Source: Rosa chinensis (Eukaryota > Streptophyta > Magnoliopsida > Rosales > Rosaceae). Taken from it: a DNA stretch of 64,000 nucleotides. Position numbers and translations under genes: made by a program. Under the pieces are notes generated by a model, which saw only the letters and a list, made by a program, of their open reading frames with translations, had not been told where the DNA came from and searched no databases. The first letter of the stretch is position 1; each line of letters opens with the position of its first letter. Shown here piece after piece: positions 22,469 through 46,378 of the stretch. The stretch is from positions 62,001 to 126,000 of the forward strand of contig NW_020126816.1 of NCBI RefSeq assembly GCF_002994745.2, read 5' to 3'.

Positions 22469-22474
22469 AAAAAT

Positions 22475-24137
22475 TGATGCGGCTGAAATAGCCACACAAT
22501 TTAACCCTGCAAAATGTAGTTGTCAGTATAGGATAAGCAGGGATCGTTCAGTCCGGGGATTGTAGGGTACGCCTACACAAAAAGGTCAATTAACAAATAA
22601 AAGAATAAAATGGGGGGTTTTGAAATTTGTTTCCTAATCTACTTAAAATAAAAACAAAACAAATAAAACTATATACAATGATCGACTTCCCTAACCTTGA
22701 TGATTCCACTTGGAAATTACTAAGTGTAAAAACAGAAAATCCATTTCAACATGCTACAAAAATGTGCCCATCTTTAATGCCTAGATAAGAGCTCAAATGG
22801 AAAGCCTCAGCGGATCAATCCATTTATCTGATTCGTTCTAATGTAGGATTGGATCGGAAAAGTCCTTACCAAGCCTAATACTACTAATTTTCGAAAACAC
22901 TCAGCGTAATTCTCTTAACTAGTAGTATTATCTAACCCTCGAATCAACTCACACGTGCAAATTAACCATTAGACATAGAATTTAACACGTAATTTCCAGA
23001 ATCGTTTAACCATTGAACATAGTTTTTACCACTTTTTAGAACTAATTGCTACTTGTTTAACTCAGCGCCTTAACAAATAACAATTACTCTTGGCAAATTA
23101 AGAAAACACACAAGAACTCTCACCATTATTCTAGCATGCAAACTTATTAACCTAACTCTGAAAATTACCTAAACACGTAAAAGGGCACAAGATTGTAACA
23201 TGCATCATAAAAGAATTCTCGAAATTAACTCAATAATAAACTGAAAATCTCAAAAATATTAATAAAAATATTCTGAAAATTCCATGTCTCCAATTACACA
23301 ACTCGCAAATTGAAACACACAAAACCGAAACAAAAATTATAAGTAGAGTCATAGTTACACTTTGAAGCTTTCCTCAGCGGCTTAGCAACAAGGTGATGAA
23401 CTTGTCTCTGCTATGGTGGTGGAGCGTCCTTGACTCAGCGCCTAAGAGCTTAGTAGATTGATGGATGGATGGTGTCACGGTCTTGTAGGTGATGGAAGTT
23501 TAAGAAGTGAATTGGGCAGTCTTGGAATGGTTTTTGGCCAGGAAGTGATGCCAATTCTATTCTGGACATTGCCTATTTATAGGGGAGCATTGGTTGGCTT
23601 TCCCAACTGAAACGTCTCCTTTATGACCTTAACTCCTCTCATAATGGGGCAATTCCTTTAATTTCCAAGCTGAAACGTCTTTCTCTTATTTATTTTTCCA
23701 GCTGAAACATCTTTTTCTTTTATTCCTCAATTGAAAACGTCTTTTCTCCTTTATTCTTCAGCTAAAAACGTCTTTCTCCTTTATTTCCCTTCTTCATTGC
23801 TTGGTCAAATGTCTTAATGCTTTATTTTATGACTCCATCATTGTTGTTTCCAAGAGTTCCACCAGGCAAGGTTTCCTACAACAAGCAGGAGAATATCAGA
23901 ATTTTCTAGAGAAAATAAAGGGAATTAAAATGTAAAGACCGCAAAAATAGTTGACAGTTAGGAATCTTGATCCAGCTAGGATTTTTCATGAATTTTACTT
24001 TTTTCGCCTATTTCACTCCAAACACTCTACAAGACTCTCAAAATGACTCGATGACTCAAAACACGAAACTTAAGGGAGAAACAAGGCTAAAATGGGGCAC
24101 ATATTCAATAATATCGTCACAATTTTTTGTCCTATCA
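22475..24137 (-). repeat. LTR C (1663 bp), 3' LTR of element G, minus strand
   Basis: On the minus strand it starts TGATAGGACAAAAAATTGTG at 24137 and ends CAGCCGCATCA at 22475. It contains a TATA box CCTATAAATAGG (minus, about 23574-23585) and the conserved CAATCCCCGG block near its end. The end resembles family D LTRs (GCCGCATCA) but the 5' part is distinct from A, B and D. The six bases AAAAAT at 22469-22474 are the complement of the ATTTTT spacer that normally separates LTR and PBS. Confidence 0.85.
23574..23585 (-). promoter_or_regulatory. TATA box of LTR C
   Basis: CCTATAAATAGG on the minus strand, in the middle of the LTR as expected for a U3 promoter. Confidence 0.5.
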
Positions 24138-27021
24138 ACTACCCCACACTTAGCTTTTGCTAGTCCCTTAGCAAAACAAAAATACAAAACAAAACAACGA
24201 CTCGACAAAAAACAAGTAAATGACTCTACTTCACCTAACTGTTGTCTCCGAGACTCCAAACTCATGGCTTTCACGTTAAACACTTAATCAAAATTGCATA
24301 GATAATTCCATGGTTAATAAACCTGTGACATTCATATGACTAAGCAAGATATGGAGAACTTAAGTTATACAGTGAATGATAGCATGTTTCGAACAAATCC
24401 AATCCAAACTCACAGGGCATACTCTCGATTTTTCTCTCAGAAATGGCTATGCTTAAAAGCTTCACTCTCAAGTATATGCAAGAGAATAAATTTTAAGGCA
24501 ACAAACAGCTTGCATATTTCATCAACAAACGCATTTTGTGAAGAATTATTAAAGACCTCAAGAAATGACTAAGTGCACAAATGGACCTAAACCATAAGCT
24601 CGACTGCGTACCTGACTCCACTAACCAAAGACTGCCCATCTCAAGGATCAAGTCAGCATTTAAAACAGGTTGTAATGGGGCTAAGCTAGGGTTTTTGAAA
24701 TGAAGATTAAGGATACAAAAATCTAAAGGACCTAGCAGAGCATATATGGACCACCTTATGTCATCATTTTTGCAGACCAAATATCATTGTTTTGGGCCAA
24801 ACCTTCACTCTAACCAACATGGGAATGGACAAAGGCATAATTTTCAACTTTGAGCCTTCTACAAATTTGAAAGTCCAAAACCACAGTTCAACAATTTCCC
24901 AAGAGTTTTCTTTTCAATTTTTCCTCCTCTTTTGCCGCTTTTCTTTCTTCCTTTTTCATTTTATTTTTACGGCAAAATTTTTTTTCTTTCTTTTTTTTTT
25001 TTTCTTGGATTTTCCCCACCCCACACTTGTCTTTCATCGTCACCCCTACATACTATGTCATGCTCTACTAAGTCCCTAAGACAAGGGTAGAGATATCCTG
25101 TACTAAGCTCATGGTAGGGTAGTGAGGGTGATGAAACAAAGGTTTTCAACGTAGGCTCAAAGGGGTTCATTCTAAGGAGTCCCACGACGGGCACAGTTGG
25201 GGACACATGCTTGTTTGGCTATGGTGGTTACCCTAATGCCTTCTATCCCATCCAGGATCAGTGCATATTATGGCATACAAGTTTTGACAGTCACAACAGC
25301 CGAGTTCTAGTACTCTCTAGTCCATTAAAATCTATGGCACATGATCATTGGATTTTCAAAGAATGATAAGGTTTTGCAAATACAGCCATGAAATTTTGAA
25401 TTTATCAATAAGCACTCGAAAAGAAAGTATTTTAGCTCAACAGCTCACTTAGGGTAAAATGAATCAGACTTAATCCTAGCATGCTTAATGAACCAAGTTA
25501 CAATCCTATCTCAAATCTTCATACAAGCATTACAATGTCGATTAACCACAGAATTCAATTAAGTCCTATTTCGATTGTGAAAACCTTCAGCCATGAATTC
25601 AGAGACATGTTCATCATAGACGTTAAGGGCATCCTAAGACTCAAACAAACAAAAAGACTCTAAAACCAAAGATTTTTTATTTATTTTTTTATTTATTTAT
25701 TTTTTTTTTGGTGAACTAAAATAAAGGTGTAAGTCATTCATAGAGATCCTGAACATTTTTAAAAATTAGAGAAGTTAGTAAATTGTATAGTGAACTAAAT
25801 ACAAGTGAATGATTTATACATAAACGTCACTATTCACGAGTCACTATTCACGATTTACTATTCACGAATTTACAAGTATAGAGAGAAGTATAAATTACAA
25901 AAATTTCACAAAGTATGATGTTACATATATACAAATTTTAGTTAGGGTATGGCATAGTTAATAAAAGTTTGAATCCCATTATAAGCCCTTAACCAAGGTT
26001 TAGACGTGCGGCCCAAGGGCTCGATCCTTAATACTAGTCGCCCTCCTCAATCTTTTGGTAACTCTTTTTACATAGAGCCAGGTAGTAGAGGAACGATTTT
26101 GGCGGAGCTCAGCTCACTTGTTTAGCAGGGGACGAGACCCTTTGCTAGCACTTCTCGTATCCAATCAACCTAGACACCCTATGCTACTAAGGTGCGCCAC
26201 ATGAAAGAGAAGGGTGCAAGACTAATGTTAAAGACAAAGTCCTTCACCTATTCCATTATGGTCAAAAACTTATAATAAAATTCATACTCTCATAAACCTG
26301 ATTTTTACTATTCACGAAAATTTTATACAATTATTTCTTTTTCTTTTCTTTTCTTTTATTTACAATTATTTCAACACTTAGGTACGGGAACAGGGAGTCT
26401 CGATGTGCAATCGGACTGAAACAGCTACCCTTTTCAAGACTATGTTTAATCCAATATACCTTAGTGTATCACAACATTTTCTTTTGTTATACATATCATT
26501 GATTTCGAATTAAATTCCAAGTGGTAAATCAAGTGGACGTGCGGCCCAAGTATAGTTGTCTCGACACAAAGTCCCTCCTACATCCTTTGGGCAACCTTAC
26601 TGAAATGGCCAGGTAGGGGAGGGCGAACACAAGAGGCAGAATCCATTTTGGCATGAGCTACTCCCACAATGTGGTTTAGGCCCATTTGTAAGCACTTCTG
26701 GATCCAAAACCTGTTATGAACGTTGTCCCCTTCCTAGACACCATCCCACATAGGCTATACTTACTTAGATGAAAAAGGTCCTAGGTGTGAAGACAGTTCA
26801 ATGAATATTAATAAAAACCGCCCTCAACCTTAAGGGACCTGAACTAGGTACCAATAAGGGGTTTAGGTCAATATTAATAAACACGACTTCACCTATTCCT
26901 CGTTAATTTACAACTCACAATAAAACTCGTATTCAATAATATAAATAACAACCTAAGTATTTTCTTTACTAAATTTCGATCACAATATGAACATATATAT
27001 AATATTTACGAAAACAACAAT
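24138..27021 (-). mobile_element. Element G internal region (gag-pol-less Athila derivative)
   Basis: Read on the minus strand from 27021, it follows the leader of element F (RNA modules at about 26530-26710 and 26020-26170, GTGAATAGT repeats at 25810-25880) down to the gag start TATGAATGAC at about 25737. It then jumps to the 3' non-coding region (GAGTCTTAGGATGCCC at about 25640) and runs to a polypurine tract at 24138. The whole gag-pol gene is absent. Low-complexity A/T runs lie at 25675-25710 and 24970-25003. No reading frame is supported. It would depend on other elements for proteins. Confidence 0.75.
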
Positions 27022-27355: not shown

Positions 27356-27360
27356 AAAAC
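27356..27360. repeat. Target-site duplication of element D, left copy
   Basis: AAAAC here and at 45991-45995. The target is the solo LTR A, whose sequence continues correctly across the two copies. Confidence 0.85.
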
Positions 27361-28016
27361 TGATAAGAGCATAAAGTGTGACATTTTAATTATGTATTTT
27401 CCCTCATTTGGTTAAGTTATTCTCTTAAAATTAATAATTATAACACAGTTTATGTTTTTAGGTACTTCAAGGACAGAAATGGAGAAAACAGGCAAAAAAG
27501 AGCAGAAATGAGCATAAATTAAGGACAAGTCATTTTAGAAACTTTCCTCTTTCATTTTAGGAAATATTTCCTATTTTGTTTTAGGAAACTTTCTTCATTT
27601 GAACTTTTTTATTTCTGATTTTTATATTTTAATGAGAGTCCATCACATTAAGAACTCTTGACTGATGAATTCAAGGAAAAATCATGAAGAATTCAGGGAG
27701 ATAAAAGGGAGTGTTTATATTCAATATTTATTATTGATTATCTTATTTACTATTGATTATAACACTAATTAAATTCTGATTTTTCTTGATTGTAGGAGTT
27801 CATTATGTGCACAATTGGAAGAAGATATTAGTGCAATTTAAAGGAGAAGAATAAGGGATGTATCTGGTCACTATTCAAGGAATATACAATGAGTCATTAA
27901 GGGGAAAAGAGATCAGAAAAATCAAGACTTTGTCATGAGAGAATCAAGTAAATTTGGAGGAGAAATCACCTCAAGATGATTGGCCATGATTGCATCACAA
28001 GAGATGACAAATCCAC

Positions 28017-28025
28017 TATAAATAG
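28017..28025 (+). promoter_or_regulatory. TATA box of LTR D
   Basis: TATAAATAG, repeated at 44862 in the 3' LTR. Probable U3 promoter. Confidence 0.5.
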
Positions 28026-28655
28026 CAGCCATTCTCTACTCTAAAATCATCACTTCTTCATACAAAATTCAGTTCATTAGCTTAGCTCTCTTCTCTCCAA
28101 AACCCTCTCGAAATATTCAGAAAAAGCCTCTGATCGTGAAGAGCTTTAGGACTTCTCCAAGGCTGTTCGTGTTCTTGAAGGCCAAGCCTTGTGTTCTCTT
28201 GACGTTCTCCAAGCTTCCTTGAAGATCAAAAAGTGTAATTCATGGCCCTTATTTCTGTTTTCGTACTCTTTAGTATTGAATTTCAGATTTCGTTTATGAC
28301 CTTTATTATTGGAATTGGATTTTTGTTGAGAACGAGTTTATGTTAGTAATTTTCAGATTTGTTTCTTTATGTTCTTGATTTGTTTATGATATCTTTATAA
28401 TATGATTTTGTGCCATCCTTTATATCTTTAAGCATATGATTTTGGTTGAATAACTATGTTAATCTGCAGGTTAATAAAGCCAAATTTGTGTTCTGATTCA
28501 CCTAATCGTTTTGGGGCATAAATTGAAGTGGTAAAGGCTATGTACAATGGTCGAGATTATATGCTACATGTTTGTGCGTTTGTAACTTCTTATGGATGCA
28601 TACATGTTTGAATTCATAATTCTAACTGCACTTAATGATTCATATTTAATGTTGA

Positions 28656-28660
28656 CGGAT
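28656..28660. repeat. Target-site duplication of the Tekay-like element, left copy
   Basis: CGGAT here and at 37650-37654. The uninterrupted site is visible at 45501-45505 in the D 3' LTR. Confidence 0.95.
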
Positions 28661-31600
28661 TGTGATGCCCCAGAAATTCGTATTTATTTTCCGAGGATTT
28701 TCCGGAATTTAAATTGTGGGTATCGGACCGTTTCGTGGCTCTTGGATGGAGCGGAAGTATTTCGGGCGAATAATTAATTGAAGAATATGGTTTTAGGGGG
28801 GTTGCCAAAGGTTGACTTTTTATTCGTTGGGATTCTCTGAAAACTTCCTCCACGAAAGTTGTAGAGCGCGTCGATACGAGTTCGTGGACATGTGGAACGC
28901 GGAAATCGGAGTTCGTATGAGAAAGTTGTGAGTGTTTGAAAAATTTGGAAAGTTACTATATATAGGGGTTTCCCTTTCGGGAAAGTTACTATTCTCATTT
29001 GGTAAGTTTCCATTTTCGGAAACTCTCATTTCTCTCCGTTCTCTCTCCTGATTTTCGACTGACCCGACCCAGACCCGGTGGATCCGACCCGGATTTTCCG
29101 ACGAGCTCCGGCGACGGCGGACCACCAGACGAGGCCAGATCTGTTCGCCTCCTCCGTGCGCTCCTCCCTGTGGTGTTGGTTTTCACGGCGGTTCACCGGA
29201 AGGTAGTGATCGGAGCCGCTACAGTAGACGAATCGGGACCCGACCGGAAATCCACTTTTCCGGCGACGTCTCAGCCGATCCTTCTTGGTTTTGGAATCTC
29301 CTCCTCCTTCTGATCATCCTCATGCCCGCCTTGAAGGACGATTTTGTGTGTGGAGTGGAAGATCTAGGTTTGAAAATCTGCGGTGCACAACGAATCTGGG
29401 GTTTGATCAGACGGCTGCGATTGGCCGATCTTGTAAGCTTGATCTAGGACGATCTTGGCCGAACCAGACTTAGCTCCAGGTATGAAAGTTGCTCTACTCT
29501 TCATGATGAACATTTCTGGTTGGCTTGATTGTTGTGGTTTTGAGTTTTGGTCGGTGGTGGTTGTGGTGGTTGCACCGCCGACTGTGGCGGCGTTATGGTG
29601 GCCTTCCGGCCATGTGATGGTTAGTTTCTGGTATTGTATATCATCCACTCGTCGATACGAGCGTTTTGATATATAATACGCAATTTTTGGAGATCGTATG
29701 ATTATATTGTGATTTTTACGGTTTCGGACCGTCTGATGCTTCGATCCGTGAGGATCCGAGCGTCCGATCGACTTGTGGTTTGGACATATCGATCGTAGAA
29801 GTATTCCGGAGACATTGGGTGGTCTCGGATGTGGTTTCGCCTCGATTGGCGTCACTTTGGGGATTTTAGTTCAAAACGGGGGTTTCAGACTTAAATCGTT
29901 TGTGGATTGTTGCTAAGTTGAAACCGTATGTGATTAGGTGCTTGACGAGGTATCCTTGGACGGTTGTTTTGTGGTGTGGCTGCCTTGTTCAGTATTGAAG
30001 ACGCAGCGGGAGTTTCGAGGTGAGTAATCTCACAAGGTTCATTATGAACGGAATTACCATTATTGTTTTGGCGTTAATTATTTAACTGCAAACTATAGTT
30101 GGTATTAATAGGCATTCCTGAGCGAATGACTACGTATATATATATTTACGTGAAATATATATATTCTTGTGGATGATGTGTGATGAATAATATGCATGAT
30201 GGGTTCATATTATTGTTGAATTGGACTTTTCATAGAAACAATATTGTGGAAAAAGATGTTTTCTATTGTTTGAAAAGCATTGAGTTTGATGTTACATTTT
30301 GGAGTCAAGCGTGACTCATTTTAAATGTATTGGTCTTTGTACCAAGGGTCACAGATGGTGAGCAGGGATGGGGAAAGCCGGAACTAGATGGTCGTAACGT
30401 TTTTAGGTCAGATGTGACTTACTTAACGTTGACTTGAGACCAGATGGGGTTTGAAAAGCATGGGTCGCAGATGGTGACCAACTGTTGGTTCTAAGACCAG
30501 ACGGGGTATGAAAACCAAGAGTCACAGACGGTGATAGGTTGCAGATGGTAACCAATGATTTATCTGTGTTATGAGTCTAGTTACCATAGATGTATTGTGG
30601 CATTTCTGAGTGAATGAGTATGTGTGTACATATATATATTATGGGGTATATATATGTACATATGTATTCATGTATTGGTTGCATTTCTGAGTGAATGACT
30701 ATGTGTGTACATATATATACATACGTATTCATGTATTAGTGGCTTCGTGGTGAATCTGTGTTGATGTGTTGTGTGTCTAGGTTGGACTGATTTGTTGTTG
30801 GTACATCATGGGGTTAGTGGGGAGCTATCTGATGCTCATGAGTACGTGTTTCTTTAAAAGAGAGTTTCGGGGATTCTTTCTTTTAAATGTCCTGGGAGGA
30901 CTTGTGAATCATATTATATATGTCACAGATGGTGACTAATGGTTGATATGAGACCAGATGGGGTCTGAAGATCATATGTCACAGATGGTGATCGGTCGCA
31001 GATGGTGACCAATGGTTGATTTCGAGATTGAATGGGGTCTGAAGATCATATGTCACAGATGGTGACAGGTCGCTGATAGTGACCAAGGCAAGAAATAAGG
31101 AATCACGCAGTTAGCCGGGCGAGTGGTTACGATAAGCTAGAGTGCTAGTATGTCTGCCATGGTACCTCATGGATCTAAGTAGGTTACTTATGATTCCTGG
31201 GTACGTATTTTGTCCAGGTTGGACTAAGAATCATATGCTATTTGTTAGGTTAACGATAGGTATGATTGATGTGCGTGTGTGTTTTATCCAGGTTGGATCA
31301 ATTAATCATATTTGAATTGTGATGTTACGATTTATATGATTTTGTCACGGTGTGGCTTTTGTGTTTTCCTTTTTGGGAAAGAGTATTGTTTTGGGAAGCA
31401 TGGTATGTTTTCCTTATTCTCGAGTCGAAAGGTTTTCCTCGTATTGGCGTGAGTTGTGCGGGCTTTTATCCCGTAAATTGGTGTGAGTTATTTTGAGTTA
31501 CTCATACGGGCTTGCAAAAGCTTACCGGGTTTGTTGTGTGACAACCCGGTGCACTATTCAAACGGTGTAGGGGTTAATCTTGCAGGTCAGGGAAATCGTG

Positions 31601-31927
31601 GCTGAAGCTGAGGTATCTAGTTGGCAGCAGAACTGGTAGGAAACAAATTTGATCTGGCTTTGCCATTGTTATGACTTCCGCTTTGTAGGGAACTCTGAGG
31701 AGTATTTACGTTTTATTTTGTGATGGCAATTTAATTCGTAAACTTATGTAATATATAACTCTGTTGAGCGAGTGTATATTAATTTGGATTGGTTCAGTGC
31801 ATCAGTATGTACTTGTTTTAAGGGAAAGATGTTTCTAAGTATTTTGTATTGATGGCTGAACATTTCACGCATATATAATTATGGGGTTATATATCGATTT
31901 ATTGTGTATAAAATCAGGGGCGTGACA
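28661..31927 (+). repeat. 5' LTR of the Tekay-like element
   Basis: 3267 bp. TATA box CTATATATAGG at about 28958. A GC-rich part lies at 29040-29300. A motif with CTGAGTGAATGA followed by TA repeats occurs about three times (about 30117, 30604, 30685). Between 30349 and 31085 there are about ten short hairpins with an AGATG or similar loop, related to the array in the internal region. Small open frames here recur exactly in the other LTR and are not supported as genes. Confidence 0.93.
28958..28968 (+). promoter_or_regulatory. TATA box, Tekay-like LTR
   Basis: CTATATATAGG about 300 bp into the LTR, repeated in the 3' LTR at about 34681. Confidence 0.5.
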
Positions 31928-31930
31928 GTT

Positions 31931-31942
31931 TGGTATCAGAGC
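31931..31942 (+). other. Primer-binding site (initiator tRNA-Met)
   Basis: TGGTATCAGAGC three bases after the LTR end, the common plant PBS complementary to the 3' end of initiator tRNA-Met. The match fades after about 12 bases (GTAAGG follows). Confidence 0.85.
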
Positions 31943-32514
31943 GTAAGGTACATATTTGGTGATAATCAGTACTATCCGAGTGATGGCCCGTCTGCAGCGG
32001 ATCCCCATCTGATGCTCTTCAGTATTGATATAATCATTGGGTATGTAGGAGTGTTGGTTGTGGGTTAGAATGTAGAATTGTCAGAGCATTGGTTTGCTCT
32101 GTTGGTGAAGTTGTGAACCTAGGTGTTGGTTCTTTGAGTTGCAGTCATTGAGGAATGGGAACCTCTGGATTGAACTCTGGTGGGGTGATAAGGATTGTTT
32201 TCGGGGAAAACTATACCCTTTCACACGAGCTTAGTTGTTAGATTGTTGTAGTCATGTTGTTTGACTTAATGTGACCTCCTGAACTAAATTATATGCAGGG
32301 GTTACTATGAATTGTTTTGCTTGTTTTAAATTGTGATCGCCTTGTTTTCTTCTTGATTTGATTGATTGTTGGCTTAATTTGTGTAATGGAACGCTAGTTG
32401 AGAATCTAAACATGAGGCTGTAGTCACCAGTTGACTTATGTAGGCACGATATGGAAGATTATGGAATTGATGGCCGTAGGTGTGAGCTATGTGTATATCG
32501 TGTCTAGGTTGAGG

Positions 32515-33382
32515 TGACTGATCACAGATGGTGATCGATATTGAGTCACAGATGGTGACTGATCACAGATGGTGATCGATATTGCGTCACAGATGGTGAC
32601 TGATCACAGATGGTGATATATTGCGTCACAGATGGTGACTGATCACAGATGGTGATATATATTGAGTCACAGACGGTGACTGATCACAGATGGTGATCGA
32701 TATTGAGTCACAGACGGTGACTGATCACAGATGGTGATATATTGCGTCACAGATGGTGACTGATCACAGATGGTGATCGATATTGAGTCACAGACGGTGA
32801 CTGATCACAGATGGTGATATATTGCGTCACAGATGGTGACTGATCACAGATGGTGATCGATATTGAGTCACAGATGGTGACTGATCACAGATGGTGATCG
32901 ATATTGCGTCACAGATGGTGACTGATCACAGATGGTGATATATTGCGTCACAGATGGTGACTGATCACAGATGGTGATATATTGAGTCACAGATGGTGAC
33001 TGATCACAGATGGTGATATATATTGAGTCACAGATGGTGACTGATCACAGATGGTGATCGATATTGCGTCACAGATGGTGACTGATCACAGATGGTGATA
33101 TATTGAGGTCACAGATGGTGACTGATCACAGATGGTGATAGATATTGAGTCACAGAAGGTGGCTGATCACAGATGGTGATATATATTGAGTCACAGATGG
33201 TGACTGATCACAGATGGTGATAGATATTGAGTCACAGAAGGTGATTGATCACAGATGGTGATATATATTGAGTCATAGAAGGTGACTGATCACAGATGGT
33301 GATATATTGAATCACAGATGGTGACTGATCACAGATGGTGATATATTGAGTCATAGACGGTGACTGATCGCAGACGGTGATC
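32515..33382 (+). repeat. Tandem array of about 21 units of 39-41 bp, each with two hairpins
   Basis: Each unit contains GTCAC-AGATG-GTGAC and GATCAC-AGATG-GTGATC, joined by TATTGAG or similar. Both are perfect or near-perfect stems around the same 5-nt loop. Units vary slightly in spacer length (GATATATTG against GATCGATATTG) and in a few loop bases (AGACG, AGAAG). Confidence 0.93.
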
Positions 33383-34366
33383 AAGGCAGGAAATAGGTAA
33401 TCACGTCCTTGGCCGGACGAGTGGTTACGATGTCAGTCAGAGTTCTTGTCTGTCTGCCAGGATAGTTTATGGGAGTAACGGTCGAGGTTGCTGGAGACTC
33501 ATAAGTATGTAATTATAGGAGAATTCCGAGAGTATTCTTCCTTTATTGTCTAGATGAGACTTGATTTGCTTCTTGATGGTTAAGTTAGCAAATAGAACAT
33601 TGTCACAGCGGTGATTTATGTTTTTCTTTAGATGGAAAGGTTATGGAGTGCTAGATGGAATCATGGTTGCATGGTTTCCTCAAGCTGATGTGTGTGCGGA
33701 TAAGAAAGTACCTTATCTAATTCTGCTTGTGTGCTAGAATAATGTGTGATAGTTGTGTACTTCTTTCCATGTGTGGTTTTGTGTTGAGTTTTGTCTGTTG
33801 TCTATAGTTAGACTTTTGAGTGTGGCATGTGATGTGATGCATCCTTCATTGTTGTGGTAGTAGAGGGTCTATACCACTTTGATTGTAACTACAATGACAG
33901 GTGATGATGTGTGTGCGGGTCAGGCTGGGCCAGACCTTAGCTTGATTTTGTGTTCCCAGGTTGGGTAGACACTTATTAAGTTGTGATGCATAGGTTCGAG
34001 GTGAGTTGAAATGAAGGTTTCATTTTCAATTCTTGTAATGCAAGGTTTGCATTATTGGTGATATGATGCAGATACTGTTGTGATAACAGGATTCTGGACT
34101 CTTGTGTGATCTGTGTGTAATGCTGCAGTCACAGAGTCTTTGTTGGATAGTGTACGAGGACGAGATCCATGAAATGATTGGGTTACCACCGAGCGGTGTG
34201 GTAAAGATTCCTAGTGTTGTGATACTAGGTAGGGTACCTGTATCCATTATTGAGCTAAGGTATTGTACAGCGAGGCAAGAACAGATTGTTGAGGAATGAG
34301 AATTGGATGTGGGGATGATTTATACGTACTGTGGGAGTGGTACGTGTAAATTTCGGGACGAAATTT

Positions 34367-34383
34367 CTTTAAGGGGGGTAGAA
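34367..34383 (+). other. Polypurine tract, Tekay-like element
   Basis: CTTTAAGGGGGGTAGAA immediately before the 3' LTR; plus-strand primer site. Confidence 0.88.
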
Positions 34384-37300
34384 TGTGATGCCCCAGAAAT
34401 TCGTATTTATTTTCCGAGGATTTTCCGGAATTTAAATTGTGGGTATCGGACCGTTTCGTGGCTCTTGGATGGAGCGGAAGTATTTCGGGCGAATAATTAA
34501 TTGAAGAATATGGTTTTAGGGGGGTTGCCAAAGGTTGACTTTTTATTCGTTGGGATTCTCTGAAAACTTCCTTCACGAAAGTTGTAGAGCGCGTCGATAC
34601 GAGTTCGTGGACATGTGGAACGCGGAAATCGGAGTTCGTATGAGAAAGTTGTGAGTGTTTGAAAAATTTGGAAAGTTACTATATATAGGGGTTTCCCTTT
34701 CGGGAAAGTTACTATTCTCATTTGGTAAGTTTCCATTTTCGGAAACTCTCATTTCTCTCCGTTCTCTCTCCTGATTTTCGACTGACCCGACCCAGACCCG
34801 GTGGATCCGACCCGGATTTTCCGACGAGCTCCGGCGACGGCGGACCACCAGACGAGGCCAGATCTGTTCGCCTCCTCCGTGCGCTCCTCCCTGTGGTGTT
34901 GGTTTTCACGGCGGTTCACCGGAAGGTAGTGATCGGAGCCGCTACAGTAGACGAATCGGGACCCGACCGGAAATCCACTTTTCCGGCGACGTCTCAGCCG
35001 ATCCTTCTTGGTTTTGGAATCTCCTCCTCCTTCTGATCATCCTCATGCCCGCCTTGAAGGACGATTTTGTGTGTGGAGTGGAAGATCTAGGTTTGAAAAT
35101 CTGCGGTGCACAACGAATCTGGGGTTTGATCAGACGGCTGCGATTGGCCGATCTTGTAAGCTTGATCTAGGACGATCTTGGCCGAACCAGACTTAGCTCC
35201 AGGTATGAAAGTTGCTCTACTCTTCATGATGAACATTTCTGGTTGGCTTGATTGTTGTGGTTTTGAGTTTTGGTCGGTGGTGGTTGTGGTGGTTGCACCG
35301 CCGACTGTGGCGGCGTTATGGTGGCCTTCCGGCCATGTGATGGTTAGTTTCTGGTATTGTATATCATCCACTCGTCGATACGAGCGTTTTGATATATAAT
35401 ACGCAATTTTTGGAGATCGTATGATTATATTGTGATTTTTACGGTTTCGGACCGTCTGATGCTTCGATCCGTGAGGATCCGAGCGTCCGATCGACTTGTG
35501 GTTTGGACATATCGATCGTAGAAGTATTCCGGAGACATTGGGTGGTCTCGGATGTGGTTTCGCCTCGATTGGCGTCACTTTGGGGATTTTAGTTCAAAAC
35601 GGGGGTTTCAGACTTAAATCGTTTGTGGATTGTTGCTAAGTTGAAACCGTATGTGATTAGGTGCTTGACGAGGTATCCTTGGACGGTTGTTTTGTGGTGT
35701 GGCTGCCTTGTTCAGTATTGAAGACGCAGCGGGAGTTTCGAGGTGAGTAATCTCACAAGGTTCATTATGAACGGAATTACCATTATTGTTTTGGCGTTAA
35801 TTATTTAACTGCAAACTATAGTTGGTATTAATAGGCATTCCTGAGCGAATGACTACGTATATATATATTTACGTGAAATATATATATTCTTGTGGATGAT
35901 GTGTGATGAATAATATGCATGATGGGTTCATATTATTGTTGAATTGGACTTTTCATAGAAACAATATTGTGGAAAAAGATGTTTTCTATTGTTTGAAAAG
36001 CATTGAGTTTGATGTTACATTTTGGAGTCAAGCGTGACTCATTTTAAATGTATTGGTCTTTGTACCAAGGGTCACAGATGGTGAGCAGGGATGGGGAAAG
36101 CCAGAACTAGATGGTCGTAACGTTTTTAGGTCAGATGTGACTTACTTAACGTTGACTTGAGACCAGATGGGGTTTGAAAAGCATGGGTCGCAGATGGTGA
36201 CCAACTGTTGGTTCTAAGACCAGACGGGGTATGAAAACCAAGAGTCACAGACGGTGATAGGTTGCAGATGGTAACCAATGATTTATCTGTGTTATGAGTC
36301 TAGTTACCATAGATGTATTGTGGCATTTCTGAGTGAATGAGTATGTGTGTACATATATATATTATGGGTATATATATGTACATATGTATTCATGTATTGG
36401 TTGCATTTCTGAGTGAATGACTATGTGTGTACATATATATACATACGTATTCATGTATTAGTGGCTTCGTGGTGAATCTGTGTTGATGTGTTGTGTGTCT
36501 AGGTTGGACTGATTTGTTGTTGGTACATCATGGGGTTAGTGGGGAGCTATCTGATGCTCATGAGTACGTGTTTCTTTAAAAGAGAGTTTCGGGGATTCTT
36601 TCTTTTAAATGTCCTGGGAGGACTTGTGAATCATATTATATATGTCACAGATGGTGACTAATGGTTGATATGAGACCAGATGGGGTCTGAAGATCATATG
36701 TCACAGATGGTGATCGGTCGCAGATGGTGACCAATGGTTGATTTCGAGATTGAATGGGGTCTGAAGATCATATGTCACAGATGGTGACAGGTCGCTGATA
36801 GTGACCAAGGCAAGAAATAAGGAATCACGCAGTTAGCCGGGCGAGTGGTTACGATAAGCTAGAGTGCTAGTATGTCTGCCATGGTACCTCATGGATCTAA
36901 GTAGGTTACTTATGATTCCTGGGTACGTATTTTGTCCAGGTTGGACTAAGAATCATATGCTATTTGTTAGGTTAACGATAGGTATGATTGATGTGCGTGT
37001 GTGTTTTATCCAGGTTGGATCAATTAATCATATTTGAATTGTGATGTTACGATTTATATGATTTTGTCACGGTGTGGCTTTTGTGTTTTCCTTTTTGGGA
37101 AAGAGTATTGTTTTGGGAAGCATGGTATGTTTTCCTTATTCTCGAGTCGAAAGGTTTTCCTCGTATTGGCGTGAGTTGTGCGGGCTTTTATCCCGTAAAT
37201 TGGTGTGAGTTATTTTGAGTTACTCATACGGGCTTGCAAAAGCTTACCGGGTTTGTTGTGTGACAACCCGGTGCACTATTCAAACGGTGTAGGGGTTAAT

Positions 37301-37649
37301 CTTGCAGGTCAGGGAAATCGTGGCTGAAGCTGAGGTATCTAGTTGGCAGCAGAACTGGTAGGAAACAAATTTGATCTGGCTTTGCCATTGTTATGACTTC
37401 CGCTTTGTAGGGAACTCTGAGGAGTATTTACGTTTTATTTTGTGATGGCAATTTAATTCGTAAACTTATGTAATATATAACTCTGTTGAGCGAGTGTATA
37501 TTAATTTGGATTGGTTCAGTGCATCAGTATGTACTTGTTTTAAGGGAAAGATGTTTCTAAGTATTTTGTATTGATGGCTGAACATTTCACGCATATATAA
37601 TTATGGGGTTATATATCGATTTATTGTGTATAAAATCAGGGGCGTGACA
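34384..37649 (+). repeat. 3' LTR of the Tekay-like element
   Basis: 3266 bp. It differs from the 5' LTR by C/T near 34572, A/G near 36103, and one G fewer in a G run near 36366, as read by eye. Confidence 0.94.
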
Positions 37650-38144
37650 CGGATGCTCTTCAGTATTAACGTGATGTTTTATATGAAATATTTTAAGTTA
37701 CGGACTTTTCCTAACTTAGGAGATTAAAGAAGAATTAAAGTGGTACTCGATCTCTTCAGACTTGTACTTCGAATTCATTTCTGATATTTAGTGTTGGCAC
37801 GATTTTAGGTTGTTTAGATTGAGATCATTCATTGCATGTTGATATGGTTTGGAAATTCTGATTTGAGTGTGAAGAAGTCGATCACATGTATATATTTATC
37901 TTTTGTTTTATTTCGTAGGAACTTAGAAACCAAAAGTTGAATTCCCCCTTTTTTATGGTTGTTTCTTGTGTAAATTTGTAGATAAATACTTGTTAATATT
38001 TGTTTTATTAATTACTAATTTAAATTGACTTTTTTGTTTAGGTGTACCCTACAATCCCCGGACTGAACGATCCCTGCTTATCCTATACTAACAACTACAT
38101 TTTGCAGGGTTAAATTGTGAGGCTATTTCAGCCGCATCAATTTT

Positions 38145-38214
38145 TGGCGCCGTTGCCGGGGATCGAACCCGGGTCACCCGCGTGACAGGCGGGAATACTT
38201 ACCACTATACTACA
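38145..38214 (-). tRNA. tRNA-Asp(GTC) cDNA copy, 5' end truncated, in element D
   Basis: Read on the minus strand it ends CCA and carries an intact T arm (CCGGG, loop TTCGATC, CCCGG), an anticodon arm CCCGC-CTGTCAC-GCGGG with anticodon GTC, and a D arm. Only the first 5 nt of the tRNA are missing, judged against the known plant tRNA-Asp. On the plus strand it begins exactly at the PBS of the D LTR, in the place where normal copies diverge after 19 nt. It is therefore a reverse transcript of the primer tRNA, not an ordinary tRNA gene. Internal A and B box sequences are present, so a gene finder may call it; the 5' acceptor strand is broken and no T-run terminator follows. Confidence 0.93.
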
Positions 38215-39797
38215 CAAGAAACAACCATAAAAAGGGGGGATTCAAGTTTTGGTTTCTAAGTTCCTACGAAATAAAACAAAAAGATAAATATATACATGTG
38301 ATCAACTTATTCACACTCAAATCAGAATTTCCAAACCATATCAACATGCAATGAATTATTTCAATCTAAACAACCTAAAATCGTGCCAACACTAAATATC
38401 AGAAATGAATTCGAAGTACAAGTCTGAAGAGATCGAGTACCACTTTAATTCTTCTTTTGAATCTCCTAAGTTAGGAAAAGTCCGTAACTCAAAAATATTT
38501 CATATAAAACATCACGTTAATACTGAAGAGCATCCGTCAACATTAAATATGAATCATTAAGTGCAATTAGAATTCTGAATCCAAACATGTATGCATCCAT
38601 AAGAAGTTACAAACGCACAAACATGTAGCATATAATCTCGACCATTGTACATAGCCTTTACCACTTCAATTTATGCCCCAAAACGATTAGGTGAATCAGA
38701 ACACAAATTTGGCTTTATCAACCTGCAGATTAACATCATTATTCAACCAAAATCATATGCTTAAAGATATAAAGGATGTCACAAAATCAGATTGTAAAGA
38801 TATCATAAACAGATCAAGAACATAAAGAAACAAATCTGAAAATTACTAACATAAACTCGTTCTCAACAAAAATCCAATTCCAATAATAAAGCTCATAAAC
38901 GAAATCTGAAATTCAATACTAAAGGGTACGAAAACAGAAATAAGGGCCATGAATTACACTTTTTGATCTTCAAGGAAGCTTGGAGAACGTCAAGAGAACA
39001 CAAGGCTTGGCCTTCAAGAACACGAACAGCCTTGGAGAAGTCCTAAAGCTCTTCACGATCAGAGGCTTTTTCTGAATATTTGGAGAGGGTTTTGGAGAGA
39101 AGAGAGCTAAGCTAATGAACTGAATTTTGTATGAAGAAGTGATGATTTTGGAGTAGAGAATGGCTGCTATTTATAGTGGAATTCTCCTCCAAATTTGCTT
39201 GATTTTCTCATGACAAAGTCTTGATTTTTCTGATCTCTTTTCCCCTTAATAATTCATTGTATATTCCTTGAATAGTGACCAGATACATCCCTTATTCCTC
39301 TCCTTTGATTTGCACTAATTTCTTCTTCCAATTGTGCACATAATGAACTCCTACAATCAAGAAAAATCAGAATTTAATTAGTGTTATAATCAATAGTAAA
39401 TAAGATAATCAAGAATAAATATTGATTATAAACACTCCCTTTTATCTCCTTGAATTCTTCATGATTTTTGTTTTAAGTTTTCCTTGAATTCATCAGTCAA
39501 GAGTTCTTAATGTGATGGACTCTCATTAAAATATAAAAATCAGAAATAGAAAAGTTCAAATGAAGAAAGTTTCCTAAAACAAAATAGGAAATATTTCCTA
39601 AAATGAAAGAGGAAAGTTTCTAAAATGACTTGTCCTTAATTTATGCTCATTTCTGCTCTTTTTCGCCTGTTTTCTCCATTTCAGTCCTTGAAATACCTAA
39701 AAACATAAACTATGTTATAATTATTAATTTTAAGAGAATAACTTAGCCAAATGAGGGAAAATACATATTAAAAATGTCACACTTTGTGCTCTGATCA
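38211..39797 (-). repeat. Inverted, diverged copy of LTR D
   Basis: On the minus strand it starts TGATCAGAGCACAAAGTGTG at 39797 and runs to about 130 bp short of the usual LTR end, meeting the tRNA copy in a shared TACA (38211-38214). Compared with the outer LTRs it has many substitutions and lacks about 50-60 bp just upstream of the TATA box (near 39180), so it came from a different family member. Confidence 0.9.
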
Positions 39798-40424
39798 AAT
39801 ACCCCCACACTTAGCTTTTGCTAGTCCCTTAGCAAAATCAAAACAAAAGACTCAACAAAAGCAAACACGTCACTACTAGACTCTACACAAGTGACACACA
39901 AAGACTATATTTGCCCTTAACATTTGTCTCATAAATCCTTACTCTCATGGCATCAAAATTAGCACTTAATCAAGAATCAATATTTAGATATTCGAGAGTT
40001 AATTGAAGCATATAATCCACATATAAATAAGTAGGACTTGGGTGTAACAATGGTGATGGGTGGAGCTCAGCATGTTTCAGACAAGTATGATTCATATCCT
40101 CACAAGGTATATCCACTCTTTCTTCACTCAGATCAAGGCAATGCTTAAAAGCTTATAAACACTCAATTATATGTGAGAGAAAATATTTTGAGGCAATCAA
40201 ATAGCTCACATATATAAGAAGCGAAAAGCACTTTGTGAATTTAATTTTTCAAGATCTCATGAAAGATATCAACTACTTGCACGGATGGACCCAAGCCATA
40301 GGTTCAACTCTTATAACTCATCTCCACAGATCAAAGGCTGTCCCATCTTAAGGATCAAAAAGGACTTTAAAGGGTTGAAATGGGGCTAAGGTTCAAGGTT
40401 TTAAGAAACAAAGGTTAAGAGAAT
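39798..40424 (-). repeat. Inverted 3' internal region of a D-family element
   Basis: Continues the inverted LTR into its polypurine tract (complement of AAGTGTGGGGGTATT) and about 620 bp of 3' internal sequence, matching the reverse complement of about 43585-44205. It ends at the snap-back repeat. Confidence 0.88.
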
Positions 40425-40446
40425 AACCTTGAACCTTAGCCCCATT
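40379..40446. repeat. 22-bp perfect inverted repeat with a 24-nt loop
   Basis: 40379-40400 and 40425-40446 are exact reverse complements (core GGGGCTAAGGTTCAAGGTT). The sequence changes direction here, as expected if a nascent strand folded back and copied itself. Confidence 0.9.
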
Positions 40447-40510
40447 GTATTCCCGAAATTTGCTTGATTTTCTTGATTAAAATAGATGCATGATTTTCGC
40501 ATCAATTTTT
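40447..40510 (+). other. 64-bp segment of unknown origin ending like an LTR-PBS boundary
   Basis: Not matched clearly to a neighbour. Its end CGCATCAATTTTTGG resembles the LTR end plus the first bases of the PBS (GCATCAATTTTTGGCGCC), after which the sequence switches to the middle of LTR D at GG. Confidence 0.6.
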
Positions 40511-41496
40511 GGCTGTTCGTGTTCTTGAAGGCCAAGCCTTGTGTTCTCTTGACGTTCTCCAAGCTTCCTTGAAGATCAAAAAGTGTAATTCATGGCCCTT
40601 ATTTCTGTTTTCGTACCCTTTAGTATTGAATTTCAGATTTCGTTTATGAGCTTTATTATTGGAATTGGATTTTTGTTGAGAACGAGTTTATGTTAGTAAT
40701 TTTCAGATTTGTTTCTTTATGTTCTTGATTTGTTTATGATATCTTTATAATATGATTTTGTGCCATCCTTTATATCTTTAAGCATATGATTTTGGTTGAA
40801 TAACTATGTTAATCTGCAGGTTAATAAAGCCAAATTTGTGTTCTGATTCACCTAATCGTTTTGGGGCATAAATTGAAGTGGTAAAGGCTATGTACAATGG
40901 TCGAGATTATATGCTACATGTTTGTGCGTTTGTAACTTCTTATGGATGCATACATGTTTGAATTCATAATTCTAACTGCACTTAATGATTCATATTTAAT
41001 GTTGACGGATGCTCTTCAGTATTAACGTGATGTTTTATATGAAATATTTTAAGTTACGGACTTTTCCTAACTTAGGAGATTAAAGAAGAATTAAAGTGGT
41101 ACTCGATCTCTTCAGACTTGTACTTCGAATTCATTTCTGATATTTAGTGTTGGCACGATTTTAGGTTGTTTAGATTGAGATCATTCATTGCATGTTGATA
41201 TGGTTTGGAAATTCTGATTTGAGTGTGAAGAAGTCGATCACATGTATATATTTATCTTTTTGTTTTATTTCGTAGGAACTTAGAAACCAAAAGTTGAATT
41301 CCCCCTTTTTTATGGTTGTTTCTTGTGTAAATTTGTAGATAAATACTTGTTAATATTTGTTTTATTAATTACTAATTTAAATTGACTTTTTTGTTTAGGT
41401 GTACCCTACAATCCCCGGACTGAACGATCCCTGCTTATCCTATACTAACAACTACATTTTGCAGGGTTAAATTGTGAGGCTATTTCAGCCGCATCA
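40511..41496 (+). repeat. LTR D fragment, 3' 986 bp
   Basis: Matches 45006-45990 of the 3' LTR to the terminal GCCGCATCA. The U3 promoter part is missing. Confidence 0.92.
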
Positions 41497-41501
41497 ATTT
41501 T

Positions 41502-41520
41502 TGGCGCCGTTGCCGGGGAT
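41502..41520 (+). other. Second primer-binding site in element D (normal)
   Basis: TGGCGCCGTTGCCGGGGAT followed by TG, the usual element form, in contrast to the tRNA-extended copy at 38145. Confidence 0.92.
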
Positions 41521-44188
41521 TGTTAAAATCTCTAACACTTAAAGTGTCATTAATTTTGTTTTTTTTGTTTTTATATATAGAATTCATGCTTAATTTTTGT
41601 ACTGCACTTGTGGAATGGTGACAAATTGCAATTTATGCTAGGCCAAGCTATAATTGTGATTTAGTTTAAGTTTTATGAGTGTTACCAAATTAAGCATGTA
41701 TTTTATAATTGTTGTGCAATTTGGAGAAGTTTTTTTTTTAGCATGTTGTGAATTGTATGATTTTCACTTAGATTTAGCATGTTGTGAATTGTATGTGTTT
41801 CACTTAGATTAATATACTTAGGTTGTTGTGAATTTCGTTAAATACTTAATTGTTGTAAGTGTGTAAAAAAATTATAAAGAAAATTAACTCAAAAAAAGAA
41901 AAAGAAAAAATTGTTGTGACACAAGGAGAAGAGTCCAGGCTGAAAGACTATAAATATTAAGCGCTGCATGGGAGGCAACCCATTTCAACCGAAGCTGTGG
42001 AGGAGCCATCAACGAGAGTTTGACATTTCTATCCCTTCACTTGTTTAGGTTGAATTGTACTTGTGTCTTTTATTTTCGTTTTTGCTTCTTTGTTTTCGTA
42101 TTTATTTTCATAAATTCAATTCCTATATGCTTAATTATTTCATTGCATGCTTCTGATTGATTACATTGAGGACAATGCAATATTTAAGTGTGGGGGAAAT
42201 GATTTATACTTTTGTCTTGAGTCATATATATTGAAAATACAAAAAAATTGAAAAATGTCAAAAATGAAAAAATTTTGTTGCTTTTATTTATTTAGTCAAA
42301 ATGATTTTTGGGTTAAATACTTTGTTCAAAGTTGGCGCATCTGATGGGATGTGATGTCTAAGGTCTAGATTGGATCCGAGAAGTGCTGACAAAGGGTCTC
42401 GTCCCCTGTCAAACAAGTGAGCTGAGCTCCGCCAAAATCGGTCCCCTCTTCACCTGGTCATGTTCCAAAGGAGTTACCGAAATGAGAAAGGAAATAACCC
42501 TAGTCCAAAACCTTTTTGGCGTCAGTCGTAGTCTTTTGTTTTGTTTTGAGTCTTAGGATGCCCTTAACTGTCTAGGATGATTCAATATCTTTGAAATTAT
42601 GGCTAAAAGAGGATCACGATATTGAGATGATTTTAAATGATATTCTTTGGTTAATTGAGATATATGAAAAGCATATGCATGTGTAGTTGATATGGATTTC
42701 GTAACCTTGGTACAGAATACGAGCATGTTAAGTTGAGTTTTGATTCATAAAAAAACCATGTGAGATATTTGAGCCATGTCCCTTTTTCTTGGAGTGATAA
42801 ATGAAAAGTATTCTTATTTTCTTGGCGATGTTTTTTATGATCTCATTATTCTTCATTTGATTGATTGCTTGCCATAGATTAAGTTTGATGGACTAAAGAA
42901 TGCTAGAATTCACTCTTGTGCTTGTTGAGACTTTTATCAATACATGTCCCTGATTTTGGAAAGGATAGAGGCACCATAGGAATCACCACCATAGCCAAAT
43001 TAACCTGTGTCCCCAATTGTGCCCGTCGTGGGACCCCCTTAGTTTAATCACTTTGAGCCTACATTAAACCTTTTCTTTCATCACCCTTAAAATCCTTAAC
43101 CGTGAACCTTAGTATATTTACAACCTTACCCTTTGTTCTAAAAATTTAGTAGAGCTATCTTTTGAGACTTACTAGATGAGGGTGGCAAAGATGAAGATTT
43201 AAAAGAGGTGAAAGTTCAAGTGTGGGGGTAGACTTGTCCACGAAAAGAAAAATTATGTGGAAGCTGTGAAAATGAAAAAAATAAAGAAAACAATGTGTAC
43301 GGCTAGAAAAAAAAAAAAAAAATATGTCTATGGATTTTAGTCCCCCATACTTAGTGAGCTTGGAGTTTATTTTGAATTGAAGGCCCACTACAGAAAAATT
43401 TGGTCTTTGTCCAACTCACTAGAGTTCAAAGGAAGTTTAGGATGAAGTTTAGGCCCAACATGAAGACATTAGGCCCTTTTATTTTGCCTCTATGGGTGTG
43501 ATGTTTTGAATGCCTTGGTGGATTTCTAGAAGTCTCTCTACATCAACATGAGCTCTACTAGGTTTTTAGGATACTTTGACATTCCTTAACCTTTGTTTCT
43601 TAAAACCTTGAACCTTAGCCCCATTTCAACCCTTCAAAGTCCTTTTTGATCCTTAAGATGGGATAGCCTTTGATCTGTGGAGATGAGTTATAAGAGTTGA
43701 ACCTATGGCTTGGGTCCATCCGTGCAAGTAGTTGATATCTTTCATGAGATCTTGAAAAATTAAATTCACAAAGTGCTTTTCGCTTCTTATATATGTGAGC
43801 TATTTGATTGCCTCAAAATATTTTCTCTCACATATAATTGACTGTTTATAAGCTTTTAAGCATTGCCTTGATCTGAGTGAAGAAAGAGTGGATATACCTT
43901 GTGAGGATATGAATCATACTTGTCTGAAACATGCTGAGCTCCACCCATCACCATTGTTACAACCAGGTCCTACTTATTTATATGTGGATTATATGCTTCA
44001 ATTAACTCTCGAATATCTAAATATTGATTCTTGATTAAGTGCTAATTTTGATGCCATGAGAGTAAGGATTTCTTAGACAAATGTTAAGGGCAATATAGTC
44101 TTTGTGTGTCATTTGTGTAGAGTCTGGTAGTGAATTGTTTATTTTGGTTGAGTCTTTTGTTTTGATTTTGCTAAGAGACTAGCAAAAG
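41521..44188 (+). other. Element D internal region without gag-pol
   Basis: About 400 bp of AT-rich 5' sequence joins at about 41930 to the 3' non-coding region seen in A, E and F: a hairpin pair at about 41932-41983, tract-like copies at 42186 and 43218, and the CTCCGCCAAAATCG module at 42378-42485. No coding frame. Poly-A runs lie at about 41885-41910 and 43305-43322. Confidence 0.8.
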
Positions 44189-44205
44189 CTAAGTGTGGGG
44201 GTATT
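44189..44205 (+). other. Polypurine tract of element D
   Basis: CTAAGTGTGGGGGTATT directly before the 3' LTR. Confidence 0.85.
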
Positions 44206-45990
44206 TGATAAGAGCATAAAGTGTGACATTTTAATTATGTATTTTCCCTCATTTGGTTAAGTTATTCTCTTAAAATTAATAATTATAACACAGTTTATGT
44301 TTTTAGGTACTTCAAGGACAGAAATGGAGAAAACAGGCAAAAAAGAGCAGAAATGAGCATAAATTAAGGACAAGTCATTTTAGAAACTTTCCTCTTTCAT
44401 TTTAGGAAATATTTCCTATTTTGTTTTAGGAAACTTTCTTCATTTGAACTTTTTTATTTCTGATTTTTATATTTTAATGAGAGTCCATCACATTAAGAAC
44501 TCTTGACTGATGAATTCAAGGAAAAATCATGAAGAATTCAGGGAGATAAAAGGGAGTGTTTATATTCAATATTTATTATTGATTATCTTATTTACTATTG
44601 ATTATAACACTAATTAAATTCTGATTTTTCTTGATTGTAGGAGTTCATTATGTGCACAATTGGAAGAAGATATTAGTGCAATTTAAAGGAGAAGAATAAG
44701 GGATGTATCTGGTCACTATTCAAGGAATATACAATGAGTCATTAAGGGGAAAAGAGATCAGAAAAATCAAGACTTTGTCATGAGAGAATCAAGTAAATTT
44801 GGAGGAGAAATCACCTCAAGATGATTGGCCATGATTGCATCACAAGAGATGACAAATCCACTATAAATAGCAGCCATTCTCTACTCTAAAATCATCACTT
44901 CTTCATACAAAATTCAGTTCATTAGCTTAGCTCTCTTCTCTCCAAAACCCTCTCGAAATATTCAGAAAAAGCCTCTGATCGTGAAGAGCTTTAGGACTTC
45001 TCCAAGGCTGTTCGTGTTCTTGAAGGCCAAGCCTTGTGTTCTCTTGACGTTCTCCAAGCTTCCTTGAAGATCAAAAAGTGTAATTCATGGCCCTTATTTC
45101 TGTTTTCGTACTCTTTAGTATTGAATTTCAGATTTCGTTTATGACCTTTATTATTGGAATTGGATTTTTGTTGAGAACGAGTTTATGTTAGTAATTTTCA
45201 GATTTGTTTCTTTATGTTCTTGATTTGTTTATGATATCTTTATAATATGATTTTGTGCCATCCTTTATATCTTTAAGCATATGATTTTGGTTGAATAACT
45301 ATGTTAATCTGCAGGTTAATAAAGCCAAATTTGTGTTCTGATTCACCTAATCGTTTTGGGGCATAAATTGAAGTGGTAAAGGCTATGTACAATGGTCGAG
45401 ATTATATGCTACATGTTTGTGCGTTTGTAACTTCTTATGGATGCATACATGTTTGAATTCATAATTCTAACTGCACTTTATGATTCATATTTAATGTTGA
45501 CGGATGCTCTTCAGTATTAACGTGATGTTTTATATGAAATATTTTAAGTTACGGACTTTTCCTAACTTAGGAGATTAAAGAAGAATTAAAGTGGTACTCG
45601 ATCTCTTCAGACTTGTACTTCGAATTCATTTCTGATATTTAGTGTTGGCACGATTTTAGGTTGTTTAGATTGAGATCATTCATTGCATGTTGATATGGTT
45701 TGGAAATTCTGATTTGAGTGTGAAGAAGTCGATCACATGTATATATTTATCTTTTTGTTTTATTTCGTAGGAACTTAGAAACCAAAAGTTGAATTCCCCC
45801 TTTTTATGGTTGTTTCTTGTGTAAATTTGTAGATAAATACTTGTTAATATTTGTTTTATTAATTACTAATTTAAATTGACTTTTTTGTTTAGGTGTACCC
45901 TACAATCCCCGGACTGAACGATCCCTGCTTATCCTATACTAACAACTACATTTTGCAGGGTTAAATTGTGAGGCTATTTCAGCCGCATCA
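44206..45990 (+). repeat. 3' LTR of element D
   Basis: 1785 bp, TGATAAGAGC to GCCGCATCA, uninterrupted, followed by the duplication AAAAC. Confidence 0.95.
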
Positions 45991-46378
45991 AAAACCAAGT
46001 TAGAATGGGTTTAGAAATCCTACTCCTACTTAAATACATTTTACAAATCCATATCACATTAGAAATCCATATACAACAAGGATTAAGATTACTTAATTAA
46101 TAAGAAAACAAATTATTGACTAAGTCAAACACAAAATACTAAGTTAAAACTAACTCTAACTACTTTCCCTAAAATTTAGGAACCTATCCCTAAAAAATAG
46201 GAGCACATAACAAACACATAACAAACTCCTAAAAAACACTAAAACTAAAAACAAACACATATTTACTATTCACGGAGACACTATTCACGAATTAAAAACA
46301 TTTATTTATTTTTTTTTAATTATTTTATTTTATTTTATATGAACATGCTACCTAAAAATTCTAAGTTAATTTCATTTA

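Follow-up and report, generated by a model that had tools for sequence, protein, structure and literature searches.

Primer over-extension is a reaction already known from retroviruses. Second strand transfer is thought to need a clean stop at m1A58, and the replication intermediates of Ty1 reportedly have untidy ends and extended, tRNA-containing cDNA; in this they would resemble the rose element described here, although Ty1 is a yeast copia element and its intermediates are said to be extrachromosomal. According to excerpts of PMC13191261, a modification brings plus-strand strong-stop synthesis to a halt once 18 nt of the primer have been copied, mutation of TRMT6-TRMT61A lets it pass A58, and some viruses carry an over-extension sequence matching the primer. 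In that mutant, with hypomodified tRNA-Lys3, the plus-strand strong-stop DNA of HIV-1 is over-extended and copies the primer past A58, as in the rose element; those products, seen in cells or in vitro, are cDNA that stops at psi55, U54 and A37 (PMC13191261, excerpts), whereas the plant copies are integrated, inherited and reach tRNA nt 1. Reverse-transcribed tRNA adjoining LTR ends is also described for a cloned circular DNA of M-MuLV, with tRNA-Gly between the LTRs (Colicelli and Goff 1986, via excerpts of PMC12220202). That was a cloned circle with a spurious primer tRNA, while the tRNA of the rose fusions fits their own PBS and the fusions are integrated, at 35 loci. Excerpts of the same source (PMC12220202) describe hairpin-induced tRNA-mediated recombination in HIV-1, where tRNA-Asp sequence, 63 nt of it in the variants, was likewise captured by reverse transcription, but at an engineered hairpin in nef and not behind the PBS. 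Helenus/TRIMp3 elements, finally, share with the rose element tRNA sequence in an LTR element; as far as excerpts of PMC10886601 describe them they have tRNA-like LTRs, and the tRNA lies within the LTR and has multiplied with the family. In the rose fusions it lies outside the LTR, behind the PBS, and every junction is different. Among plant elements 6% are primed by tRNA-Asp and 93.4% have target-site duplications (TSDs) of 5 bp (PMC6317226, excerpts). In titles and abstract openings of the open-access, as distinct from the subscription, literature we found no report of a plant element with an integrated read-through of its full primer, and none of a heritable genome-wide series of read-through fusions.

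The window, by which we mean the whole stretch of 64 kb that was analysed (G000:C10:62001-126000), contains one compound insertion at 27361-45990 (Table 1), as seen from self-comparison and reading of the junctions. A sequence-only reading had described the fusion as part of an integrated, TSD-flanked element, and copies of AAAAC are indeed present on both sides; the extension of the insertion to 45990, with more switches inside it, lay beyond the view of that reading. Behind the left LTR, in register from its end through a 5-bp spacer and the PBS, runs antisense tRNA-Asp(GUC) from the CCA to nt 6, that is, 70 of 75 nt (CCA included) with 0 mismatches in the alignment (38145-38214); unlike the tRNA of Helenus, the copy starts within the PBS, 5 bp beyond the LTR end. 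The same reading had placed this copy here, ending 5 nt short of the tRNA 5' end and about 51 nt beyond A58, and the alignment gives just these values. It had also stated that the normal copies at 4319, 41502 and 48740 match for only 19 nt, and on reading these PBSs we found that they agree with tRNA-Asp through A58 and then continue with TG. ARAGORN and Rfam (RF00005, 44.7 bits) both report the copy, on the minus strand, as the single tRNA in the 64 kb, a warning for annotation since both thereby label a retrotransposon copy as a tRNA.

Table 1. Parts of the compound insertion and its flanking duplications, in window positions.
Feature	Position	Strand	Remarks
Target-site duplication AAAAC, left	27356-27360		
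Left (5') LTR, first 1300 bp	27361-28660	+	starts TGATAAG
Younger LTR element nested in the left LTR	28661-37649	+	TSD CGGAT, 28656-28660 and 37650-37654
Left LTR, last 485 bp	37655-38139	+	ends ...CGCATCA
PBS	38145-38163	+	complementary over 19 nt to the 3' end of tRNA-Asp, A58 included
tRNA read-through	38164-38214	+	51 nt more complementary to tRNA-Asp(GUC), ends at tRNA nt 6
TACA, switch point	38211-38214		present in both the tRNA copy and the acceptor LTR
Inverted LTR lacking its last ~167 bp	38211-39797	-	from another copy of the family
Inverted PPT and 3' end of internal region	39798-40424	-	differs from 43578-44205 at 15 of 625 sites
Fold-back copy of 40379-40400, 22 nt	40425-40446	+	
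Patch of 18 nt	40456-40473	+	identical to 39191-39208 (LTR antisense)
Patch of 16 nt	40498-40513	+	LTR end, spacer and first PBS bases; GGC common to the next segment
Partial LTR, direct	40511-41496	+	from LTR position 801; differs from the right LTR at 3 of 985 sites
Second PBS, normal	41502-41520	+	
Internal region, 2.7 kb	41521-44205	+	ends in PPT ...AAGTGTGGGGG
Right (3') LTR	44206-45990	+	
Target-site duplication AAAAC, right	45991-45995		

It is likely that the tRNA copied in the window element is its own primer. A genuine tRNA-Asp gene with LTRs on both sides, the case that the sequence-only reading had named against itself, was looked for and is ruled out. The window copy is without the first 5 tRNA nt (the gene's last 5 as read here) and without the gene's flank, and it has TGG at the CCA position, which is present in 0 of 22 tRNA-Asp genes of the genome and intact in 32 of 35 fusions (altered in L019, L076 and L082), although the PBS itself contributes a TGG whatever the state of the CCA in the tRNA. 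Furthermore, when the 450 bp upstream of the PBS were aligned with ten references, 29 of the 35 fusions proved to adjoin a known LTR end, one that in other places is followed by a normal PBS. An exact search for a 27-nt piece gave 0 matches in a scan of viral contigs.

These numbers come from a search of the genome (515-Mb assembly, 53 contigs, seven of them large) for the fusion pattern LTR-TGGCGCCGTTGCCGGGGANCGAACCCGGG and related patterns. A 22-nt tRNA-Asp pattern had 49 exact matches. The main pattern, from the TGG through nt 47 with any base at position 58 and at most 3 mismatches, had 66, which were sorted by hand into 44 sites at 35 fusion loci and the 22 tRNA-Asp genes. All genome counts are to be read as "at least", and fusions halting before about nt 47 are mostly missed by this pattern. 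Nine array copies on contig C8 were counted as one locus and so were two tandem copies in L059, and six loci (L062-L067) were excluded, being normal leaders on reading. There are thus 34 further junctions of the LTR-PBS-tRNA type besides that of the window, and the word unusual, used in the sequence-only reading, does not suit this genome, where such fusions recur. The LTR ends of the 29 verified fusions belong to at least three LTR families (like 4319, 41502, L062/L064 and L009). L039, L074, L075 and L077 have no matching LTR end among the ten references, and those of L078 and L082 match only each other. With exact patterns there are 19 fusion loci and, for comparison, 2,058 sites of the normal PBS-leader TGGCGCCGTTGCCGGGGATTG, which would put the fusions at roughly 1% of PBSs; the 2,058 do not include families whose leaders differ, so this gives the order of magnitude only. 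The recurrence at 34 other loci implies that the reverse transcriptase of the element likely overruns its usual stop repeatedly. It also bears on the possibility of an assembly chimera, which the location of the window on C10, a 643-kb contig in a repeat-rich genome, might suggest. With 35 loci whose junctions differ, of which the large contigs C1-C7 carry 29, and with intact TSDs at the window, L013 and L020, such an artefact is hardly credible.

The points where the copies end inside the tRNA are informative about the template. In 19 of the 35 fusions the end is at most 7 nt from the tRNA 5' end, and in the other 16 it lies between nt 9 and 43. The last nucleotide copied is nt 1 in eight (L009, L012, L013, L021, L061, L072, L074 and L081), which has P of about 8e-7 if ends are uniform over 45 positions; seven of the 29 verified loci end there (P about 3e-6), and L074 is among the eight in spite of its unmatched LTR end. 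A halt at the mature 5' end is expected from a tRNA template and unexpected from a gene template. Alternatively, a genomic tRNA-Asp gene could have been copied in during double-strand-break repair with the PBS as homology, since the PBS without its TGG has 16 identical letters in common with the gene and plant break repair is known to allow templated filler insertion. The eight fusions ending at nt 1 were compared with the 5' flanks of the 22 genes, and none follows any flank; the longest agreement is the 5 nt CTTGT in L021, just past nt 1, which equals the maximum of 3,000 shuffles. As the errors opposite A58 in the tRNA-iMet fusions and the U3/U3 insertions with TSDs (both below) also speak against it, we consider break repair very improbable. 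Immediately 5' of their coding part, several tRNA-Asp genes (e.g. L010, L036 and L038) share the antisense sequence CTTGTTG or TTGTTG.

Position 58 itself was compared between two primers. A tRNA-iMet pattern had 19 matches in the genome, 10 without TGG, taken as genes without reading of their context, and 9 with TGG. Five of the nine are clear fusions, with copies to nt 11 (L099), about 32 (L100), 19 (L101), 36 (L103) and 26 (L105); L102, L104, L106 and L107, with T, G, G and G at position 58, were left out as their agreement ends inside the 28-nt search pattern. Opposite A58 the five read T, A, C, T and A, so that three of five are wrong (P about 4e-4, given 9 mismatches in 251 as the background of these fusions), and all 10 matches without TGG have T. 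Only 2 of the 35 tRNA-Asp fusions (L059 and L080) are wrong at this position, which is no excess (P 0.25); a methylated A58 has therefore left no signature in them, and misincorporation there is not significant as a mark of the tRNA-Asp fusions. The difference between the two primers has a Fisher P of 0.009, on small numbers. Judged from the sequences, the pattern would fit a methylated tRNA-iMet and, as a hypothesis, a mostly unmethylated tRNA-Asp.

Taken together, we read 38145-38214 as primer tRNA-Asp that was overrun in plus-strand strong-stop synthesis, with a blocked transfer, a template switch and integration as the following steps, and we give this a probability of about 0.84. Read-through of the primer past A58 followed by a switch is also what the sequence-only reading had proposed, and it stands as the best reading. 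The plus strand (U3-R-U5-PBS) would go on copying the tRNA still joined to the minus strand, pass the usual stop at A58 and nearly reach the tRNA 5' end. In the normal copies read the PBS matches only 19 nt, so the minus-strand leader would offer the resulting tail, about 50 nt long, nothing to pair with, and the second strand transfer would not be extendable. The reverse transcriptase would then escape through TACA, four shared bases, onto the plus-sense LTR of a second, related copy, which as template would yield the inverted LTR-PPT-internal segment. Further patchy switches would bring synthesis back to a direct LTR-PBS-internal-LTR template, and integrase would insert the whole product, leaving AAAAC on either side. 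We infer that the template was the still-attached primer. Alternatively, the template could have been a free tRNA-Asp in the particle, reached by a jump of the reverse transcriptase at the PBS. Any tRNA-Asp has 19 nt to which the PBS is complementary, and other intermolecular jumps have occurred, in the window onto the second copy and in L018 and L059 onto LTR ends like those of other families. This, however, requires an extra jump exactly where the attached primer lies in line, and the fusions continue the PBS in register (L019 with 3 extra bases), so we regard the free tRNA as an unlikely template. In L018 and L059 the tRNA copy is followed by an LTR end resembling a different family and then by a leader, which makes switching between families possible.

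The switch into an LTR of opposite orientation at TACA, as the sequence-only reading had it, is visible in the acceptor strand (...TTTACACAAGAAAC) and the product (...ACTACACAAGAAAC); the overlap was read by direct comparison of the printed strings. At L014 a microhomology script gave an overlap of 1 nt. The left and right outer LTRs differ by 1 mismatch in 1,784 aligned sites, with 2 gaps, and the inverted LTR by 44 in 1,572, and it is therefore from a different copy; with its PPT and internal sequence, together 627 bp, it follows the tRNA directly. Self-priming by fold-back on the same plus strand was rejected on the same figures. We also rejected a partial LTR that begins exactly at the RNA 5' end, as position 801 is about 115 nt past the start inferred from a TATA box at LTR position 657. 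An alternative for this second junction, under which the read-through itself stays, is that its end was joined to another cDNA end by ligation or end joining. The nt-1 run-offs followed by inverted leader or other sequence look blunt in L013, L061 and L072, and there is short patchwork filler at 40425-40510, which would also fit DNA end repair. Against this, TACA is shared at the window switch, and 15 of the 35 fusions return in plus sense to leader, LTR end/PBS or internal sequence as template switching predicts; end joining is to us the less probable route, with a chance of its own that is far from negligible.

At a substitution rate of 1.3e-8 per site and year, the outer LTRs would date the insertion to roughly 20,000 years. 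The nested element in the left LTR is young, its own LTRs having 2 mismatches in 3266 aligned sites, and holds tandem repeats at 32513-33382. The window element has Ty3/gypsy, Athila-like traits, namely TG...CA LTRs, a 5-bp TSD, a PPT and a tRNA-Asp PBS, but was not filed as an autonomous member since its internal region has no ORF of at least 220 aa starting with ATG, GTG or TTG. RT, RNaseH and integrase, in this order, are encoded by ORFs elsewhere in the window. Also in the window, at 22184-24422, an LTR in minus orientation (22469-24137) lies between two 285-bp inverted repeats that are 99.6% identical.

What follows the tRNA copy was sorted by hand, for L033, L039, L059 and L060 mainly from reading of the strings. 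The 15 plus-sense returns are L012, L014, L018, L030, L033, L039, L046, L048, L059, L060, L073, L075, L079, L080 and L081. Nine fusions (the window, L009, L013, L020, L028, L043, L061, L072 and L076) go on in inverted sense, and these two classes would be the escape routes taken genome-wide; one (L044) leads into a direct LTR, and ten have no assigned partner downstream (L019, L021, L032, L041, L047, L074, L077, L078, L082 and L083). None of the 35 shares an identical junction with another, so there is no sign of a fusion that was multiplied by retrotransposition.

Two of the inverted cases, L013 and L020, end in U3 at either side and are flanked by perfect target-site duplications. L013 (C2, 3,540 bp) reads ATATG, then TGATAGG...U5-PBS, a tRNA copy to nt 1 with one mismatch, inverted leader-PBS-LTR...CCTATCA and again ATATG. 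L020 (C4) has a similar plan with the TSD TCGAT; here the tRNA copy reaches nt 3, and tRNA sequence is briefly repeated before the inverted LTR begins. Rearrangement of a normal integrated element would not be expected to give such insertions, and we therefore take these products to have existed as cDNA before integration. The arms are 90-91% identical in L013 and 79-82% in L020, too diverged to tell one source copy from two. At the window the evidence for integration is the outer ends and the AAAAC duplication; an ordinary TSD does not prove that the inner junctions are older than integration, and their timing is judged from L013 and L020. The plan of the window recurs in another family in L009 (C1), where LTR, PBS and a tRNA copy to nt 1 are followed by 816 bp inverted, whose match lies downstream of the L012 fusion in what we take to be internal sequence, and then by an LTR from position 34 and a PBS. 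L061 was rejected as a third U3/U3 insertion, since its two arms stop at one and the same position inside the LTR and no TSD was seen, and for L072 the start of the left LTR was not found. L028 and L076 are inverted too, but continue into PPT and internal sequence; the two arms of L076 align over 185 bp only.

It is conceivable, though we hold this tentatively and at somewhat less than even odds, that the genome is an archive of failed plus-strand stops: full read-through of the primer would be a regular side path of tRNA-Asp-primed reverse transcription in plants, at about 1% of PBSs, its cDNAs would be competent for integration, some of them inverted with a U3 end at either side, and the fossils may record the methylation of A58, present in tRNA-iMet and largely absent in tRNA-Asp. 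With 35 inherited stop failures in one genome, the frequency of such failures could be estimated, and the set would show where the reverse transcriptase halts within the tRNA, which escape routes it takes (leader return, inverted LTR or direct LTR), which copies were together in one particle and, possibly, the methylation state of the primer.

Two of the fusion loci hold more than one copy. At G000:C8:556989-563369 (L044 and L045) nine matches stand head to tail at a spacing of 794 bp; four of the nine copies were read and the rest are matches at this spacing. This array of partial LTR, PBS and tRNA copy apparently grew from a read-through product. In L059 (G000:C2:78194152-78194253) a 73-bp unit, consisting of the tRNA copy and the LTR end resembling another family, is tandemly duplicated, and both copies read A opposite A58 of the tRNA.
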